Made by a program: the position numbers and the translations under genes
Shown here: piece by piece, positions 1,538 to 60,367 of the stretch
Layout of the letters: the number at the start of each line of letters is the position of its first letter
Position numbering within the stretch: the stretch's first letter is position 1
Source of the DNA: Inonotus obliquus
Lineage: Eukaryota; Basidiomycota; Agaricomycetes; Hymenochaetales; Hymenochaetaceae
Reading direction: 5' to 3'
DNA length: 64,000 bases
Assembly: GCA_032164295.1 (NCBI GenBank)
Contig: JAJHTX010000005.1
Span: 2,480,001 to 2,544,000 of the forward strand
The notes under the pieces: model-generated
What the model was told of the DNA's origin: nothing
Seen by the model: only the letters and a program-made list of their open reading frames with translations
The model's database searches: none

Positions 1538-1702
1538 TCATGATGACGTGCGACAAGGGCAGACAACGGTTTCCGTCGGAGTGCCCGAAACCGTAATGGT
1601 CTCAACGATACAGATGTCTGGGCAAGGGTGTACAACCGGCTCGGGCGCAGCTGCTGCCACAGCGACGAGAGCGAGGACAGTAGCGATGAGGTACGAACGC
1701 AT
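1538..1702 (-). CDS. Small secreted cysteine peptide, member 1
   Basis: 54-residue single-exon ORF. Residues 3-19 form a hydrophobic signal peptide ending in an alanine run, with likely cleavage near residue 19. The mature part is about 35 residues with four cysteines at 27, 31, 48 and 50, giving C-x3-C and a terminal C-P-C followed by RTSS. The spacer is rich in Thr/Val. A GATAAAAG box lies about 60 bp upstream. A GTATGT donor occurs 10 bases after the stop, so the transcript may carry an intron in its 3' UTR, as in other members. Same plan as the ORFs at 2315, 2882, 3684, 4985, 6187, 6952 and 47357. Function unknown; an extracellular signalling or interaction peptide is only an inference. 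Confidence 0.7.
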   Translation of the reverse strand: MRSYLIATVLALVAVAAAAPEPVVHPCPDICIVETITVSGTPTETVVCPCRTSS

Positions 1703-1761
1703 AACTACTTTGGTGGGAGATTTTAGTTCGGAGACTGGTGACTAACAGCCTGCAAGTCCTC

Positions 1762-1769
1762 CTTTTATC
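1762..1769 (-). promoter_or_regulatory. TATA-like box of peptide member 1
   Basis: GATAAAAG read on minus, about 60 bp before the ATG at 1702. Position and sequence fit a core promoter. Confidence 0.45.
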
Positions 1770-2314
1770 CTCTTTGGATCCGTGACATCGATTATAGTAC
1801 CCGTACTTTCTTCACGAGCGGTCTCGTCGACCTTCTGGACTCGGACCGAGCTCATTCTGAATTTGAATCTGATATAGCACGGCCTGAAACACCAGTCTAA
1901 CGCTCGGTAGCGGCTTACCAGAGGGGCATCAACTTCAGCCGCAGCGATGTCCCATTGATACAAATAACTTGCGCCGTGATCGGCCTAAACGTACGCATTT
2001 CGGTCGCACCATCGGCAGATGCTAGAAGAGATGCGGTCCTGAATTGATTATTATGCAGAGACCGTGAATTTTGTTGGCGTGACATCCAGGCATTCAGTTC
2101 TTGTTTACATGGATACGGCAATCAAACTCAGGTAATGTTTTCCTAAACGAGTCTCGCCCTTCCAGTCAACACTGCCTACATCCGCTATTCCCGTTACTTT
2201 TGTCCCTTCGCCGCGATGATCGTAACGCATACGAATCGTATCGGCTTTCGGAGGAAGCCTATGCTAAGTTCCGCGAACATCTCAAACTCGAGAAACAGCA
2301 CCACTTACAGTCAG
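1770..2314. other. Intergenic between peptide members 1 and 2
   Basis: About 550 bp. Upstream region of member 1 and 3' side of member 2. A GTAAGT donor follows the member 2 stop at about 2308 and may start a 3' UTR intron. Nothing else supportable. Confidence 0.4.
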
Positions 2315-2485
2315 CTAGTCGCAGGCACATTGTCCACGCCCTGGGCTTGGATTACGTCTGAATATCCCATCTATATCTGTACAAGGCGGGCATTCGATCG
2401 GATCAGCAACTGAGGCTGCAGCGGCCGACACCACGATGGCGAAGACAAAGGCGGCGATGATTGATCTAAGGTTTGTAAACTGCAT
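2315..2485 (-). CDS. Small secreted cysteine peptide, member 2
   Basis: 56-residue single-exon ORF. Residues 9-26 are hydrophobic with an Ala-rich cleavage region, so a secreted precursor is expected. Four cysteines sit at 32, 35, 53 and 55: C-P-P-C then a terminal C-A-C-D. This is the divergent form of the family, with C-x2-C instead of C-x3-C and Asp replacing the usual terminal Pro. The spacer carries RR, a possible dibasic processing point. Six bases after the stop is a GTAAGT donor, like the intron that follows the last cysteine codons in members 6 and 7. Function unknown. Confidence 0.65.
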   Translation of the reverse strand: MQFTNLRSIIAAFVFAIVVSAAAASVADPIECPPCTDIDGIFRRNPSPGRGQCACD

Positions 2486-2881
2486 GTCTTCTTAGCGAGG
2501 TGGGTGTTTGTTCCTTTCACCATTTCACGCTGAGGCTTAAGTACCTTTCTCCATTACTGACGCTGTAGGCTGACTGCCATTCCGTCTCGTCCCCAACCGG
2601 AAACTTGTTTCAACAGTAATGCACTTGGGATTTACAATTTCGCTCGCTTCGGCGCAAGAATCAAACAAACATTCCGAACTTTCTACATTCCCCTAACTCT
2701 CTTGCAATTCTCCGTCACAGCTCTCTTTACTACTCTGGCTCCCTTCGAAGTTATGAACTAATTCTGAACTAAGGTAACTTAGTTCTGATTTAGGAAGTAC
2801 CGAGCATTGATCGGACTCACCTCACGAAACACCTCAATTGAAAGGATCCGCGCTCCCAAGCTCCCCGTGATTATCCGTCTT
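2486..2881. other. Intergenic between peptide members 2 and 3
   Basis: Upstream region of member 2 and 3' side of member 3. No coding or repeat signal seen. Confidence 0.4.
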
Positions 2882-3082
2882 CTACACTGGGCATAAGCAA
2901 CCCGTGCGTTTCTCATATTCAATTATCTCATCTCGTTTGATTGTAGCGCCGCCGCCCGGTAGAGGTGGGCAAGTACCCGTACACCCGGTGGGGATAGGCC
3001 TCCGAGCAGTAAGAATGTACGCATTAGTGAGTGCTACGGTGCCTGCAAGAATGCAGAGGACGGAGAAAAGTGCGAAGCGCAT
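2882..3082 (-). CDS. Small secreted cysteine peptide, member 3
   Basis: 66-residue single-exon ORF. Signal peptide residues 4-21 with cleavage likely near Asn20-Ala21. The mature peptide has four cysteines at 34, 38, 62 and 64: C-T-G-T-C, a longer spacer with a charged stretch (IKRDEIIEYEKR), then C-L-C-P-V. It keeps the C-x3-C...C-x-C-P plan but adds one residue after the proline. The spacer contains KR and KR pairs that could be processing sites. A canonical TATAAAA lies 71-77 bp upstream of the ATG. Function unknown. Confidence 0.72.
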   Translation of the reverse strand: MRFALFSVLCILAGTVALTNAYILTARRPIPTGCTGTCPPLPGGGATIKRDEIIEYEKRTGCLCPV

Positions 3083-3152
3083 TTCAATTCGAGTAAAAGA
3101 AGGTTGGACGCGGAAGAAATGTTCTGGAGAATCTAGTGGATTTCATGGGAGA

Positions 3153-3159
3153 TTTTATA
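3153..3159 (-). promoter_or_regulatory. TATA box of peptide member 3
   Basis: TATAAAA on minus, about 75 bp before the ATG at 3082, matching the spacing in the plus-strand members. Confidence 0.6.
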
Positions 3160-3683
3160 CGATGCAACACTCTTGCCAAGAAACTCCGTCCATCAGCACA
3201 AACAGCGCTCAGCCTCTGCGACAACGCCGGTACGGCTGTGGTGGCTTATAATCGCCCAAAAATAGTCTGACGTACAAAGACAGGGGAAGGACGGAGCAAG
3301 AAAACATAGGAACCATCATTTGTTTCCGCCCGCAGAATTCTTCCGGAGCTGTGCAAATCCAAGTCTAGAATGTGAACGACACGGAGTCATACGCTTTTTT
3401 TTGCGCGTCCAGTTTTGTTCGCCATACTCAAAACAGTACTCTGTATGTTTACTGGCCGCAACTGCGCTATGTCTCACGATGTTCAATTGATTACTCGTTT
3501 TCTCAATGATAATTCCTATTATAAGTAGGTATCCATCACTCTCAAGGACGTCCCCAGACTAGATACAACACTGCAGCATAATACATTCAACCAGCGGGAC
3601 TCAATCGTTATTGTAACCTGTCATGCTACATATCAGATCAAATCCCAAATGGTAAACCCAGAACTCTCACAGATTCATACTCT
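3160..3683. other. Intergenic between peptide members 3 and 4
   Basis: About 520 bp with a T-rich run near 3395. Holds the member 3 upstream region. No gene supported. Confidence 0.4.
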
Positions 3684-3854
3684 TCACGGACAGCCACAAC
3701 CGCACCCTGGCGGAAATCCACTTCTCACCGTCGTCGTCGTCGTTGCACATGCGTCGGGAGGGAGTGGGACACATGGCGGGCAGCCTCCGATGGGCGTGCT
3801 GGCTGCTAAGCTAGCAAGAGCAACGAGTACGGCAGAGAGGATGACAACTTTCAT
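3684..3854 (-). CDS. Small secreted cysteine peptide, member 4
   Basis: 56-residue single-exon ORF. Signal peptide residues 2-19, cleavage likely near Ala18-Ser19. Mature part: C-P-P-C at 25/28, an extra Cys at 36, five consecutive Thr encoded by a (ACG)5 microsatellite, then C-G-C-G-C-P at 51/53/55. With six cysteines it is the most cysteine-rich member, but it ends in C-x-C-P like the others. The ACG run is a likely length polymorphism. A TATAATC box lies about 60 bp upstream. Function unknown. Confidence 0.7.
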   Translation of the reverse strand: MKVVILSAVLVALASLAASTPIGGCPPCVPLPPDACATTTTTVRSGFPPGCGCGCP

Positions 3855-3910
3855 GGCTAGTTCTTTGGTTTGGTATGTTGTCCTGTTTCAACTGACCTCT
3901 AGCTTATGTA

Positions 3911-3917
3911 GATTATA
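3911..3917 (-). promoter_or_regulatory. TATA-like box of peptide member 4
   Basis: TATAATC on minus about 57-63 bp before the ATG at 3854. Confidence 0.4.
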
Positions 3918-4877
3918 GCACCGTCCAGAAAGCGGTGAAGCGGCTTTTTCAGAATAAGAGTGTTTCGACCCAAAGGCTCCGTACGGACATAATCGTTCAA
4001 ATGAGGACGACATCAAGCGAGCCTTGAAACTTCAAACGCAGTTCAGGTGATCCAACCATTCCGGGTCCCGCTAGCATTTAGTTCGAATTGAGTGCGAGCC
4101 GAACGAGTGGCATCCTGTCCGCAAAGGGCAAGCAAGATCATCTCAAACTCAGCAATGGAGTTGAGACCCAGAGGCAAAGAGTCACCGTCTCGGGATAGCC
4201 GACGAGCGGGATGATGCCGCGAAGTAACTCAGTCGCCAAAGGATTATCCGGAACTAGCTCTGCACGATGGCTTCGTCACTATGATCCGGAAGCACTGCGG
4301 ACAATAGTATTAATTCTCACAAGGAAGCGGCGTTCATGACCGTAGGGTAGGTACGTAAGCAGAGTCTCTTTGGTTCCTTGATAAAAATAGATCAGCCCGA
4401 CGGCACCGACAATTTCCAAATGTTCCAGGCACACTGTTCATTCCAATCAATTATCAATTACTCATATTTACTCAAATCGTCGTCGGTAGTCGGTGGATGA
4501 TGATGTACCGCTGATAGCACTTGGGCGCTGTGGATCTTGTGTTCAACAATGACCCGCGCAGGTCATAAATAACTGGCCGAGCCAATGAGCGTAGTTCTCC
4601 CAGTCGCGGGAGCTAGCGTATGATCACCCGAATGATTATTGTGAATTACTCCGGATGGGCGCGCGTTTCAATAACAGCGAGAGGCACGGTAACTGACTAG
4701 AACAGTACGGCTGCGGACTCAAAGTCTGGGAAAACCCCGATGTTCAACGCTGTCTTCGGTAGTCTGCTGTTTGTGTTCGGCGCAGTGCCTAGATGCCGCC
4801 TAGGAACAAACGTGTTGTGCCCGTCAAAAAACGGCAGAGCTCGCAGAAATCGTGAGTTACTCCAGGACTGTGCAGGG
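3918..4877. other. Divergent promoter spacer inside the peptide cluster
   Basis: About 960 bp separating the minus-strand peptide genes (members 1-4) from the plus-strand genes (members 5-7). No coding feature supported. It must contain the upstream controls of both arms. Confidence 0.45.
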
Positions 4878-4885
4878 TATAAAAG
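4878..4885 (+). promoter_or_regulatory. TATA box of peptide member 5
   Basis: TATAAAAG about 100 bp before the ATG at 4985. Confidence 0.6.
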
Positions 4886-4984
4886 AGAGGACTGAAAGCT
4901 GGAGAATGAGTTCAGTTCAAACTTCACTTACTGCTCAACCAAACAAAAAGCATTTCCAACTCATTCTTAGCCACTCGAATAACA

Positions 4985-5167
4985 ATGCGCGCTGCATCAA
5001 TCGCTCTCTCCGTCCTTGCTCTTGCTGCAAGCTTCGTAGCTGCCATCCCAGCCGACACTACGACTTCCGCTCCTCCAGCTGAGAGCTCACTCGTTTTCAG
5101 ATGCGACTTTGTATGCCCTCCCGGAGTGCACATCGGTTCCGAGGGAGGCATCTGCCACTGCCCTTGA
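4985..5167 (+). CDS. Small secreted cysteine peptide, member 5
   Basis: 60-residue single-exon ORF. Residues 3-20 are a clear signal peptide (cleavage near Ala19-Ala20); residues 22-36 are Thr/Ser/Pro/Ala-rich and may be a propeptide or O-glycosylated linker. The C-terminal 21 residues carry the four cysteines at 40, 44, 57 and 59: C-D-F-V-C, then terminal C-H-C-P-stop. A GTCAGT donor begins one base after the TGA and an ACAG acceptor follows at about 5221, so a 3' UTR intron is likely at the place where members 6 and 7 have an intron overlapping the stop. First of the plus-strand arm. Function unknown. Confidence 0.75.
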   Translation: MRAASIALSVLALAASFVAAIPADTTTSAPPAESSLVFRCDFVCPPGVHIGSEGGICHCP

Positions 5168-5221
5168 GGTCAGTAATCGCATAAAGTAAAACTCCTGAGA
5201 CGTTCTGACCGATCGCATACA

Positions 5222-6107
5222 GTCACTAACCCTGCCGTAATCAACGCCGTTTGACGGTATTGGTTGAGGAAGTGCTCAGTAGCAACCGTGAGGATTTCGT
5301 GACATCAATTGAGGGAACCATAGCTCACTGACAATGTAGAATTTTCTTGCATCATCGTATATATTGTAGCCTGCATAGGAATTCACGTTGCAGTAATAAT
5401 ATGTTCTGAAAAATATTGAGAGATTAGACATACACAATGATAATGACGATGTCAACGTTCCCAGCGGAGGTTGGCCCTCTTGGAGACTGTCAGTCTGCTG
5501 AGAGTATCCTGCCGTTTATTTCTCATCCCGTTCACGCTTGAGCCAGCTGTTGCCGATGTCGGCATTATTTTTTGAATCTAGCTGAATACTGCCCGAGCGG
5601 TGGGTTCACAGCATGTCATGATGTCACGGTAAATCTTTACATCATATTAGACGTTCACTTACTCTTTCGGACCTCTGAGGAGTAACCCACTTCGCCTTTA
5701 CGTTGTATTGTTGGCAGATCATTCGCCCTCAGATGGTGGCGGCAGCTAGTTGTCAGAGATCCTCAGTTCCTCTGCATTGTATGTCACCTAGCTTACTCAC
5801 CTAAAATTAACCTGGCATTCAGAGTTATGATATCTTTTCGGTTCATGTATCGCGTGCCGTCAATGTATCAGAAGTTTTCCGAATGGAGTGTGCCTGGAAC
5901 AATAGTTCTAACGTCTTCCCGGCAGGATCAATAGGCCCGCTATACGGGCTATGAGATCTACGATGAAGAAAAACAAAATTCGCGCCCAATTTTCGATTAA
6001 AACCTCACAGGGTGAGGAATAGCCGCAGATTATGGTTCCGCTCTACAGTGAGTTTAGAAACGGTTTTTTAGAATCTCCAATTGGGAAGATGACCTTGAGG
6101 TGAACAG
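5222..6107. other. Intergenic between peptide members 5 and 6
   Basis: About 890 bp, AT-rich. I searched it for another signal-peptide/CxCP ORF and found none. No RNA gene or repeat seen. Confidence 0.4.
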
Positions 6108-6115
6108 TATAAGAA
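6108..6115 (+). promoter_or_regulatory. TATA-like box of peptide member 6
   Basis: TATAAGAA, 79 bp before the ATG at 6187. Confidence 0.5.
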
Positions 6116-6186
6116 GGCTGAAGATTCGAACTTGACTATCAGCACTCACAAATCACTCCGATTAACACACACTCTGAACAACCACG

Positions 6187-6431
6187 ATGAAACTCACGTA
6201 CATCTCATTCTTGCTCGCCACCCTCTTCGCTGGAGCGGCTCTTTCCAGTCCCGACGCAACGACAACCATCGACTGCTCGGTCATCTGCCAGAACATTGGC
6301 AGCGGCGGTACAACGACTATCAGTACTGGTGATGGTCCGGTAATCTGTCACTGCCCGTAAGTGAGACTCATAACCGTCGTTTCTCAGTCGGACTGACTTA
6401 TTTCCGTAGGATCCAAACGATTGCGGCTTAG
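6187..6431 (+). CDS. Small secreted cysteine peptide, member 6 (two exons)
   Basis: Exon 6187-6356, intron 6357-6409 (GTAAGT..TAG), exon 6410-6431. Residues 3-20 are a signal peptide. Cysteines at 30, 34, 54 and 56: C-S-V-I-C, a Gly/Thr spacer, C-H-C-P. The splice donor overlaps an in-frame stop (CC|G TAA GT). Unspliced RNA therefore ends at C-H-C-P (57 residues), and spliced RNA continues with IQTIAA before TAG. Member 7 has the same arrangement with IQTTSA. Which product is made cannot be told from sequence, but two paralogs with matching 6-residue tails argue that splicing is real. Function unknown. Confidence 0.72.
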
Positions 6432-6859
6432 GGTGTTTTCATCCGATGATGAGAATGTAGAGATGGGGTAGAAGAAAAGTTATGTAACCACCCGCTCTGG
6501 CGGACCGAACCTGTATCAAATAGCTTTTCGGGATGAACAGAGCGTGCTGCTAAAAATACTTGAACTCTGGTGGATTCACGGTAGCTGATGCGACTTTCTA
6601 TTATTAGTGAGGAATATTAGATACCTGAAACGACCAGAAATGAATCCACGGTTCTTACCTAAACACCGCTGAAATCTCTAAACACACGTTGGAGGAAATA
6701 CACCGCTCACTGCTCGCTAAATAGAATAAAAAAGTACCAATTAAGTCCCGAAGCAGCAGCGTAAGATGGACATCGGAAGAATGTGCCTGTCACTTAAAAA
6801 ACGCACCTTTTGAGTCTCCGAGACGCCACGCTTTCGAGTTTGCCGAGGAAGAGATATCA
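6432..6859. other. Intergenic between peptide members 6 and 7
   Basis: About 430 bp; 3' flank of member 6 and upstream region of member 7. No gene seen. Confidence 0.4.
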
Positions 6860-6866
6860 TATAAAG
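6860..6866 (+). promoter_or_regulatory. TATA box of peptide member 7
   Basis: TATAAAG 92 bp before the ATG at 6952. Confidence 0.55.
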
Positions 6867-6951
6867 GCCCTGTAAAATGCAAGTAAGACTCAACACTTCC
6901 AACACCATCCAAAAAGCTGCACTGCTTTCTTGAATCTCCACGCTAGTCGCA

Positions 6952-7211
6952 ATGAAATTCACTTCCATGGCAGTCGTCTTCGCCGTATTCTTCGCCGGCA
7001 GCGCTGTTGCCGCTCCTTCTCCCCAGACAATTTTTGACCCATCGCATATCCAATGCAAATTCATTTGCCCAAACGCTGGCACAACAGCAACAGCTACTGC
7101 GACGAGCATCGAGACGACAGGCGTTGTGTGCCACTGCCCGTGAGTATCCAGATATTTTTGGTTTGAACCCAGCTAAACGCCGACAGTAGGATCCAAACCA
7201 CCTCTGCGTAA
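6952..7211 (+). CDS. Small secreted cysteine peptide, member 7 (two exons)
   Basis: Exon 6952-7139, intron 7140-7189 (GTGAGT..TAG), exon 7190-7211. Signal peptide residues 3-20. Cysteines at 35, 39, 60 and 62: C-K-F-I-C-P, an Ala/Thr-rich spacer, C-H-C-P. As in member 6 the donor contains the in-frame stop (CC|G TGA GT). Retention gives a 63-residue product ending C-H-C-P; splicing adds IQTTSA. Members 6 and 7 are neighbours in the same orientation and look like the most recent duplicates. Function unknown. Confidence 0.72.
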
Positions 7212-8322: not shown

Positions 8323-9619
8323 ATGGGGGCCTTTTCTCGTCTTCTGCCGCCTCTTGTAAGCGCTTATGGGCTTCAGACACGTTAGTATTTGATGTTTCAA
8401 CGCAAACTAGGCGACTGAGTGATTCTGTAGTCTTCGCTTTGATATTTGTTCCCCAGAAGAATGAAATGTTCTACGACTTTGGAGGAGCGCTGGGTTTTTT
8501 CTCTACGACATTCGTTTCCTTATATTATCCTGCGCTTCGCGAGAAATACATTCTCGGAAGAGACGTACCGCTCCCGAGACCGTCATCTTTTGCCTCGCGG
8601 CAGCTTCTCCTCAGTGGTTGCTTGGTGCTATGGAGTACGAGACTCGGAACGTTCCTATTGAGCGTAAGGTGTAATCTTCATACATCTTCTCATTTGCTAA
8701 TGTGCCACCGAGATAGCGGGCATTGAAATCTGGAGGCGATTCGCGTTTCGATAAAGTGAAGCACCAGCCTGCCAAGTTTACCTTCTTCTGGATGGCTCAA
8801 GGTTCATCATACGTCGCTATTAGCGATCGCTGAACTAAACTATCCACTTGTAGCGACGTGGATATTTCTCGTCGGACTACCCGTCTATATGGTACGTGCT
8901 TCGTATCCTACATGAAAGCAGCGCATTGAAGTCTGAACTAGGTTAATACTATGCCATCGCATTTGCACCCTGCGCTTCGCCCAAGAGATTATCTTTCCCT
9001 GGGCTTATTTGCCTGCTCATTCTTGTTCGAAATAGTAGCAGACCACCAGAAGACGGCATGGAGAAAGGAGAAAGCCGAAAAGAAGCATGAAGAACAGTTC
9101 ATTAGTAGCGGCCTCTGGGGTATTAGCAGACACCCCAAGTACGCACTGGACTGATCTGCCATTATGATGACATAAATTAATTATCACGACCAGTTATGTC
9201 GGTGAAGTGGGATTGTGGACAGGTATCTGGGCGCTCTCGACGTCTTCGTTGCGAACCCCCTACTTTCCCACACTCGCACCAGTCATTGCGGCAGCGAGTC
9301 CGATTGTCACTTATCTTCTCATCAGAAAGGTGAGTTAGAGTCTTCCTCATCATATACCATAATTGACCCATAACTCAGGTCTCCGGTGTTCCACCTCTTG
9401 AGGTAATTGAGATAACTTTAACATATTACACGTGGCTCACTCCTTTTGATCAACAGAAATCTGGCGACAAGAAGTTTGGTAACGATCCGAAATGGCAAGA
9501 ATACAAGAAGTGAGTAGATTCTCTCGACATACTGCTTAATTTGATGCCTGATGGCCCTGATCCACCAATCATCGCCAAGGACTGTCCCTGTCTTCTGGCC
9601 GTGGGGTCCGATGAACTAA
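8323..9619 (+). CDS. DUF1295 family integral membrane protein
   Basis: Nine exons (8323-8380, 8431-8663, 8717-8801, 8854-8891, 8942-9138, 9194-9329, 9379-9402, 9457-9509, 9580-9619) join in phase to 287 residues. Landmarks: FYDFGGALGF, SFASRQLL, LWSTRLGTFLL, GGDSRFDKVKHQPAKF, several membrane segments, then FLFEIVADHQK, SGLWGISRHPNYVGEVGLW and a tail ending TVPVFWPWGPMN. This is the layout of the DUF1295/steroid 5-alpha-reductase C-terminal-like family of membrane proteins, related to isoprenylcysteine methyltransferases. The substrate is unknown in fungi. HPNY and GE are conserved as in the family. The start at 8323 gives the hydrophobic MGAFSRLLPPLVSAYGL lead. The gene is divergent from the LYR gene with about 230 bp between starts. 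Confidence 0.88.
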
Positions 9620-47356: not shown

Positions 47357-47521
47357 ATGAACTTCGCTACACTCTCAGTCTACGTCGCTGCGCTATTCGC
47401 AGGCTTAAGCCTGACTGCGGCTAGCCCTGTCGCTCAACCTGAACCTACAGTCTCGCCCATTTGCGCCATCCAGTGCATTCCTGGTGTCACCATCAGCGCT
47501 CCCGGTTGTCACTGCCCTTGA
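47357..47521 (+). CDS. Small secreted cysteine peptide, member 8 (unlinked)
   Basis: 54-residue single-exon ORF. Signal peptide residues 3-22, then a Pro/Glu linker and four cysteines at 36, 40, 51 and 53: C-A-I-Q-C, a short 10-residue spacer, C-H-C-P-stop. Belongs to the same family as the cluster at 1.5-7.2 kb but lies 40 kb away. One base after the TGA is GTAAGT, the same intron position as in members 5-7. The downstream acceptor at about 47591 is followed by GCTTGGATCC, reminiscent of the GATCCAA exon starts of members 6 and 7. Function unknown. Confidence 0.75.
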   Translation: MNFATLSVYVAALFAGLSLTAASPVAQPEPTVSPICAIQCIPGVTISAPGCHCP

Positions 47522-59734: not shown

Positions 59735-60367
59735 CAGACTGTTCCTTCACACTCATCGTTTGAGTCGATCGTCTCCGTTGGCATCAACCCCAGAGTTACC
59801 TGCTGTTTCCTCCTCATATTGCATACATAAGAGGCCACTAAACTTATGCCTCAATTTGACCATTTGTCGACCGTAATCCGTGACGGTGGGAGTACCTTTA
59901 ACCTTAAAAGCAAGATCGGGCGGCACTCTGGGGTCTGGAGATGAACGTGATGTCGGCGCCCATCAGCTCTTTCTACAATCCACATACAGTCAACTGGTAC
60001 TGATTTGGTCAAATCGTGTCAGCGTGAATGACACCGTATCAATGCGAATGGCACTTACTCCCCGAGAGGAGATCGACTGATTGCTGCAAACTTCTTTCTC
60101 AGCTGTATTCGGTGACAGCATTCATACATCCTTCTACTTCGTTCTCATATCTGTATTGTGATTCAAGGAATTGCGTTCCTTGCAATAATTTCTGCCACTG
60201 TTGATCATAACATCAACTGTCTGCCTCGACGCTTGCAAGACCTTTCTACCATATTTCTTTATTCACCATGAAATAGCATTTGTTCCTAATAATTTGCCTG
60301 GATGGGACGTCACTACACACATATGCTTTCATTACAATCGCGAAGAAAAGCTTCATTGAAGAGAGGG
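59735..60367. other. Convergent intergenic region NLR / F-box relic
   Basis: 633 bp; no gene supported. Confidence 0.4.

Follow-up and report, generated by a model that had tools for sequence, protein, structure and literature searches.

The window analysed here, a stretch of 64 kb (C5:2480001-2544000) from a genome of 36.07 Mb in 30 contigs that is eukaryotic by gene content, carries a cluster of seven tiny open reading frames (ORFs), g1 to g7, and an eighth, g8, 40 kb from the cluster. An earlier note on this DNA had described seven tiny secreted peptides with a shared cysteine plan, and all seven ORFs were found where it placed them, at 1538-7143, with 54-66 codons each, g1-g4 on the minus and g5-g7 on the plus strand. 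The members, with lengths in amino acids (aa), are:

1538..1702, minus strand: g1, 54 aa, leader and C-x3-C-x16-C-x-C, ending RTSS
2315..2485, minus strand: g2, 56 aa, C-x2-C-x17-C-x-C, ending D
2882..3082, minus strand: g3, 66 aa, C-x3-C-x23-C-x-C, ending PV
3684..3854, minus strand: g4, 56 aa, six cysteines with spacing 2,7,14,1,1, ending CGCGCP
4985..5167, plus strand: g5, 60 aa, C-x3-C-x12-C-x-C-P at the end
6187..6356, plus strand: g6 exon 1 (ORF 6187-6360, 57 aa), leader, C-x3-C-x19-C-x-C and the first two bases of the Pro codon
6952..7139, plus strand: g7 exon 1 (ORF 6952-7143, 63 aa), leader and C-x3-C-x20-C-x-C
47357..47521, plus strand: g8, the eighth member, 54 aa, C-x3-C-x10-C-x-C-P at the end

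All members share one plan: behind a hydrophobic leader comes a divergent linker, and then a core of C-x(2,3)-C followed near the end by C-x-C. The first cysteine pair is C-x3-C in six of the eight and C-x2-C in two, the later C-x-C is found in all eight, and in each of the seven cluster ORFs it lies at most 4 residues from the ORF end. With cleavage sites placed by eye, the mature peptides come to about 32-49 residues and hold exactly four cysteines in seven members and six in g4; in the seven four-cysteine members 10-23 residues separate the first pair from C-x-C. Thr, Ser and Pro together make up 24-43% of the mature part, which is rich in these residues in most members, and its net charge is -3 to 0 in seven of the eight and +2 in g3. 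At 54-66 aa, or up to 69 aa if spliced as predicted below, the ORFs fall within the <300 aa by which small secreted proteins are defined.

We compared the window with shuffled and control DNA using a combined pattern, made of a leader rule (a home-made hydrophobicity and cleavage-site rule rather than SignalP) and a regular expression for the cysteines that was post hoc, written once the ORFs had been seen. Eight ORFs of the window matched it, and there was no match in 20 dinucleotide shuffles of the 64 kb, in 100 shuffles of the 6.6-kb cluster or, in strict or loose form, in 127,461 bases of other DNA of the same genome. A larger control from this genome comprised 187,461 bases with 747 ATG-initiated ORFs of 40-100 aa, compared with 263 such ORFs in the window; some of its loci had been chosen for a CxCP-stop word, which biases it towards matches, and about 3 kb of it is counted twice. 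The leader rule was passed by 59 of these 747 control ORFs, by 28 of the 263 window ORFs and by all eight members. The cysteine core alone occurred in one control ORF, which had no leader, versus nine window ORFs, eight of them with a leader. Having C-x-C no more than 4 residues from the end is not in itself rare: 11 control ORFs (two with a leader) and nine window ORFs (eight with a leader) show it. In the 10-kb flanks on either side of the window the regular expression, which misses spliced genes, detected no further member. Within the window, a 58-aa ORF at 60028-60204 on the plus strand matches the cysteine pattern and ends CHC; it failed the leader rule and is probably a chance occurrence.

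Two short C-terminal words were also traced through the whole genome. CHCP followed by a stop codon (TAA or TGA only) occurs at seven places, compared with four for the reversed control pattern: three lie in the cluster, one is the end of g8 at window position 47507, and three lie elsewhere, on contigs C1, C3 and C7, with no leader-bearing ORF at any of these. The pattern TGYNNNTGYCCNTRAG occurs at 33 places versus 39 for its reversed control, and among the 30 of these 33 loci that were examined a leader precedes the four members of this contig and one other locus, L040, which by eye looks like the N-terminus of a P450.

Outside this genome, a profile built from g1-g7 retrieved P0001 (expectation value, E, 2.3e-7) and P0002 (E 1.1e-6); a third match, P0003, was dropped at E 3. 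P0001 and P0002, which sit on contigs of 909 and 1,111 bases, are relatives of g4, with 67% and 75% identity in the multiple alignment and 66% and 73% in the search. A profile of this g4 group returned only the same two proteins, and the 20 pattern stretches obtained by scanning IMG/VR with the g4 profile included no relative. The profile of g5-g8 retrieved P0004 (E 1.6e-16) and P0005 (E 1.1e-11). P0005 is nearest to g5 (57% identical), and P0004 is the hypothetical protein ACEPAF_8108 of Sanghuangporus sanghuang, annotated at NCBI and 68% identical to g7 over 100% of the query; it has the leader, linker, C-x3-C...CHCP core and IQTTSA tail of g7, and stands there as a single annotated protein without function. 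In all, four outside proteins are related to three members (g4, g5 and g7) at 57-75% identity. The lack of similarly organised ORFs in related species was to have counted against the family, and for these three members such ORFs were found. Judging from these alignments we are highly confident that g4, g5 and g7 are real genes, and because one relative is an annotated S. sanghuang protein they appear to be genes of a Hymenochaetaceae-like lineage, the lineage being read from P0004 alone. The view that such short ORFs are mostly missed by gene callers does not fit g7, whose S. sanghuang relative is annotated; for the other seven members no annotated relative was returned.

Within the genome itself, protein searches with g1, g2, g3, g4, g7, g8 and P0005 as queries (g5 and g6 were not used) yielded no convincing further member beyond this contig; any member whose core is interrupted by an intron would escape all of these searches. 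The g1 query matched only g1 and had no relative elsewhere. Besides themselves, g2 had one weak match (C13, E 0.066) and g3 another (C8, E 0.43), with a stop inside. A weak match of P0005 (L058, C12:1472752-1472874, E 0.155) has a leader, two stops and then, by eye, CFEM-like cysteine spacing, and was judged unrelated.

Among the members, tblastn gave E values of about 1e-6 for g6/g7, 0.006 for g6/g8, 0.02-0.05 for g5/g7, g7/g8 and g5/g8, and only 0.9 for g5/g6, the leaders contributing to these scores. By this measure g5-g8 are recognisable paralogues. The statement that the peptides hardly resemble each other apart from cysteines and ending is therefore right for the four minus-strand genes and wrong for g5-g8. 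The comparison of regions between members and relatives gave the following identities (leader, linker, core):

g4 and P0001: 7/19, 4/5, 27/33
g4 and P0002: 14/19, 3/5, 24/32
g5 and P0005: 10/20, 6/23, 18/21
g7 and P0004: 13/20, 9/14, 27/35 (core including the tail)
P0001 and P0002: 6/19, 2/5, 23/33

In all five pairs identity is higher in the cysteine core than in the leader, and clearly so in three of the four member-relative pairs; for g4 and P0002 the core exceeds the leader by one percent only. As far as such alignments go, this speaks for constraint on the core, and not for rapid change or an arms race there, and the paralogy appears deep with a conserved core. Calling the peptides fast-evolving, as the earlier note did, is only partly right, since the core is conserved in all four member-relative pairs.

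The comparison with P0004 also bears on the C-terminal ends. This protein reads through past CHCP as CHCPIQTTSA, and from the sequence behind the g6 and g7 ORFs it is probable that the apparent stop of each lies inside a splice donor. The predicted features are as follows, a slash marking the splice junction:

5169..5222, plus strand: predicted g5 intron in the 3' untranslated region (UTR), directly behind the stop, TGAG/GTCAGT ... CATACAG/TCACTAACC, predicted from sequence only
6357..6409, plus strand: predicted g6 intron, by analogy to P0004; donor CC/GTAAGT overlaps the apparent TAA stop
6410..6431, plus strand: predicted g6 exon 2, adding (P)IQTIAA and a stop
7140..7189, plus strand: predicted g7 intron; donor CC/GTGAGT overlaps the apparent TGA stop, and the acceptor GTAG ends at 7189
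7190..7211, plus strand: predicted g7 exon 2, adding (P)IQTTSA and a stop

The predicted tail of g7 is identical to that of P0004 in six of six residues. As P0004 is a gene model and not a transcript, we infer the splicing of g6 and g7. In g5 and g8 a donor-like site (TGAG/GTNAGT) stands one base behind the stop, in g8 as TGAG/GTAAGT with a predicted intron from 47523, and the intron would therefore lie in the 3'UTR; the predicted second exon is coding in g6 and g7 and apparently untranslated in g5 and g8. Counted without a chance control, four members (g5, g6, g7 and g8) thus have a donor-like site at the stop or one base behind it, and further such sites come 6 bases behind the g2 stop and 10 bases behind the g1 stop. 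The interval 1538..7211 given for the cluster in the earlier note ends exactly on the last base of the predicted second exon of g7. The ending C-x-C-P at the very C-terminus, which it had called usual, is seen in four of the seven ORFs (five of the eight members), and in only three of the eight (g4, g5 and g8) if g6 and g7 are spliced as predicted. One could imagine, though we give the idea little chance, that a stop built into the donor of the terminal intron serves as a switch, splicing or retention yielding CHCPIQTxxA or CHCP ends that differ in activity, with g5 and g8 making the short form only.

We propose that signal peptidase would cleave each precursor and that the exported mature peptide would consist of a flexible part and the cysteine core. 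The N-terminal pair (C-x2/3-C) would form disulfides with the C-terminal pair (C-x-C), so that 10-23 residues are enclosed in a loop and a stable extracellular peptide results; two disulfides would be the simplest closure for a secreted peptide that has two cysteine pairs. The genes would have arisen by local duplication, with minus-strand g1-g4 and plus-strand g5-g7 diverging from a point at about 4.4 kb, and with g8 40 kb away, after which the members would have diverged from one another as each cysteine core stayed constrained. Outside the cell the peptides would most likely act in an effector-like manner or as signals for the fungus itself, in development or in the response to substrate or neighbours. 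Secretion, disulfides, splicing and function are what we infer. Since the net charge is anionic or neutral in seven of the eight, the peptides are unlikely to be classical lytic antimicrobials. Taken as a whole, we lean towards a lineage-restricted family of secreted, disulfide-closed peptides that are effector-like or signalling and not classical cationic antimicrobials. That the DNA holds a duplicated family of tiny, apparently secreted cysteine peptides of a basidiomycete, as first claimed, is supported.

Several observations weigh against this proposal. In tblastn g1-g4 have no significant match to any other member, and their place in the family consequently follows from architecture and neighbourhood. 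No relatives of g1, g2, g3, g6 and g8 were found in a search that needs shared 5-residue words, an absence that is weak for this reason. Thr, Ser and Pro reach only 24% and 27% in g2 and g3, and between g4 and P0001 conservation of the 5-residue linker (4/5) is on a par with that of the core (27/33). AlphaFold2 models of the mature parts are poor, with a mean predicted local distance difference test score of 54.2 for g4 and 50.9 for g7, and thus support no fold or disulfide pairing; as models they neither show nor exclude closure by two disulfides.

In the open-access literature searched, part of it available to us as excerpts, no description of this peptide family was found, and we regard it as a new family of a known kind, the orphan small secreted proteins. 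In 31 Hymenochaetales, small secreted proteins account for 31.6-62.2% of secreted proteins according to the part of that survey used here (PMC10410303). The Ssp1 family of Pleurotus ostreatus is likewise secreted, hypothetical and multi-copy in a wood-decay basidiomycete, and Ssp1 is presented in the portion of the report consulted as an effector-like small secreted protein that affects development and the ligninolytic system (PMC7105643); unlike that family of about 18 kDa, to which we liken our peptides without a sequence comparison, the mature peptides here have 32-49 residues. Because of their non-cationic charge and the Ssp1 precedent we favour, with modest confidence, a role as effector-like or signalling small secreted proteins. 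The lambda-Zytrisins of Zymoseptoria, as far as the excerpt on them goes, are also small secreted cysteine peptides, with some genes adjacent and many products not cationic, and are described as derived from a C-x3-C / C-x-C framework (PMC5234102). They have six cysteines and two conserved introns, one behind the signal peptide and one in the fourth cysteine codon (PMC5234102), in contrast to four cysteines in seven of our eight members and a predicted intron at or behind the stop.

That framework leads to an alternative which we consider unlikely, namely that the peptides are stripped-down defensins of the cysteine-stabilised alpha-beta type, in which a helix carrying C-x3-C is bonded to a strand carrying C-x-C, and antimicrobial or defensin-derived. 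The defensin order, exactly C-x3-C ... C-x-C, is found in six of the eight members, and in the excerpted account both motifs are key determinants of the fold, altered-framework relatives exist in Zymoseptoria, and more than 70% of the relatives there are net negative or neutral according to the text, a table note reversing the percentages (PMC5234102). However, the framework needs six cysteines and seven of the eight members have four, for which we reject a full defensin; the six of g4 have the wrong spacing (2,7,14,1,1), and the first pair is C-x2-C in two members. The charge is not cationic in seven of the eight, a Pro right after the first cysteine pair in g3, g5 and g7 disfavours a helix, and the low-confidence models contain no helix in g7 and a short one (14-19) in g4. 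A Pfam scan of the seven cluster members (g1-g7, g8 not being scanned) returned no family up to E 1. The PDB sequence search with the g5-g8 profile gave eight matches (best E 0.93), none meaningful: an ATPase, and alpha-factor constructs and enzymes that align with profile positions 1-32, where the leader lies. The family may have a defensin origin.

It is quite unlikely, in our view, that the peptides are extracellular binders of metal or haem, with the thiols of C-x3-C and CHCP reduced or metal-loaded, for instance with copper or haem in lignocellulose decay. CHCP is invariant in g5-g8, P0004 and P0005, and Cys-Pro and C-x-C are known ligand motifs, but the His is missing from g1-g4 and secreted thiols normally oxidise. 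The CFEM haem-binding domain has eight cysteines; the members have four or six, and no Pfam family, CFEM included, was matched by the seven scanned.

A surface-active or wall-coating role like that of hydrophobins has a very small chance. The peptides are small, apparently secreted, duplicated and in most cases rich in Thr, Ser and Pro; against it, their mature parts do not look strongly hydrophobic, and they have four or six cysteines, not eight, and none of the seven scanned matched a hydrophobin family in Pfam. With hydrophobins and basidiomycete pheromone precursors they share being short fungal cysteine products of multi-gene families. Hydrophobins have 8 cysteines and basidiomycete pheromones a CaaX end, and we agree with the initial description in rejecting both: the first by cysteine number and the Pfam result for g1-g7, the second by the endings, which are CP, CPV, CD and CRTSS in the ORFs and IQTTSA and IQTIAA in the predicted spliced forms.

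Chance ORFs or a reading artefact are highly improbable. Short ORFs are common (263 in the window) and C-x-C near the end occurs alone in 11 of 747 controls, but none of the 20 shuffles and none of the 747 control ORFs combined leader and core, and the relatives at 57-75% identity, one of them annotated elsewhere, reject chance for g4, g5 and g7, with g6 and g8 supported as their paralogues, a rejection that we do not extend to g1-g3.

Peptides so small are easily overlooked, and a short second exon such as those predicted here escapes a plain reading of ORFs. The locus offers a defined family with a recognisable CHCP end and, for three members, a core conserved across species. If expressed, such compact peptides would be candidate extracellular signals or effector-like factors in wood-decay fungi.

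Upstream of the genes, TATA-like boxes lie 62-107 bp before the ATG in five of the eight members, a count made without a chance control; that of g3 lies at 77 bp, and TATAAAAG stands 107 bp upstream of the g5 ATG. Common 8-base words in the eight upstream regions, allowing one mismatch, reach at most five of the eight (TATA-like, AATCTCC-like, ATCCAAAG and GAAATGGT), again without a chance control, and we claim nothing from them. In the surroundings, a Pfam scan of 54 of the 90 window ORFs of at least 110 codons identified 24 families, including ABC transporter, GH131, RAI1, TPR and LRR, none of which suggests a function for the cluster. An ORF at 8951-9154 on the plus strand resembles, by eye and with no Pfam scan behind it, the C-terminal part of steroid-reductase-like (DUF1295) proteins. 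Among ten ORFs scanned singly, including the nearest to the right of the cluster and those around g8, only Actin passed the cutoff. Directly left of the cluster, two minus-strand ORFs at 37-922 match Pfam Actin (PF00022) and are Arp3-like by eye.

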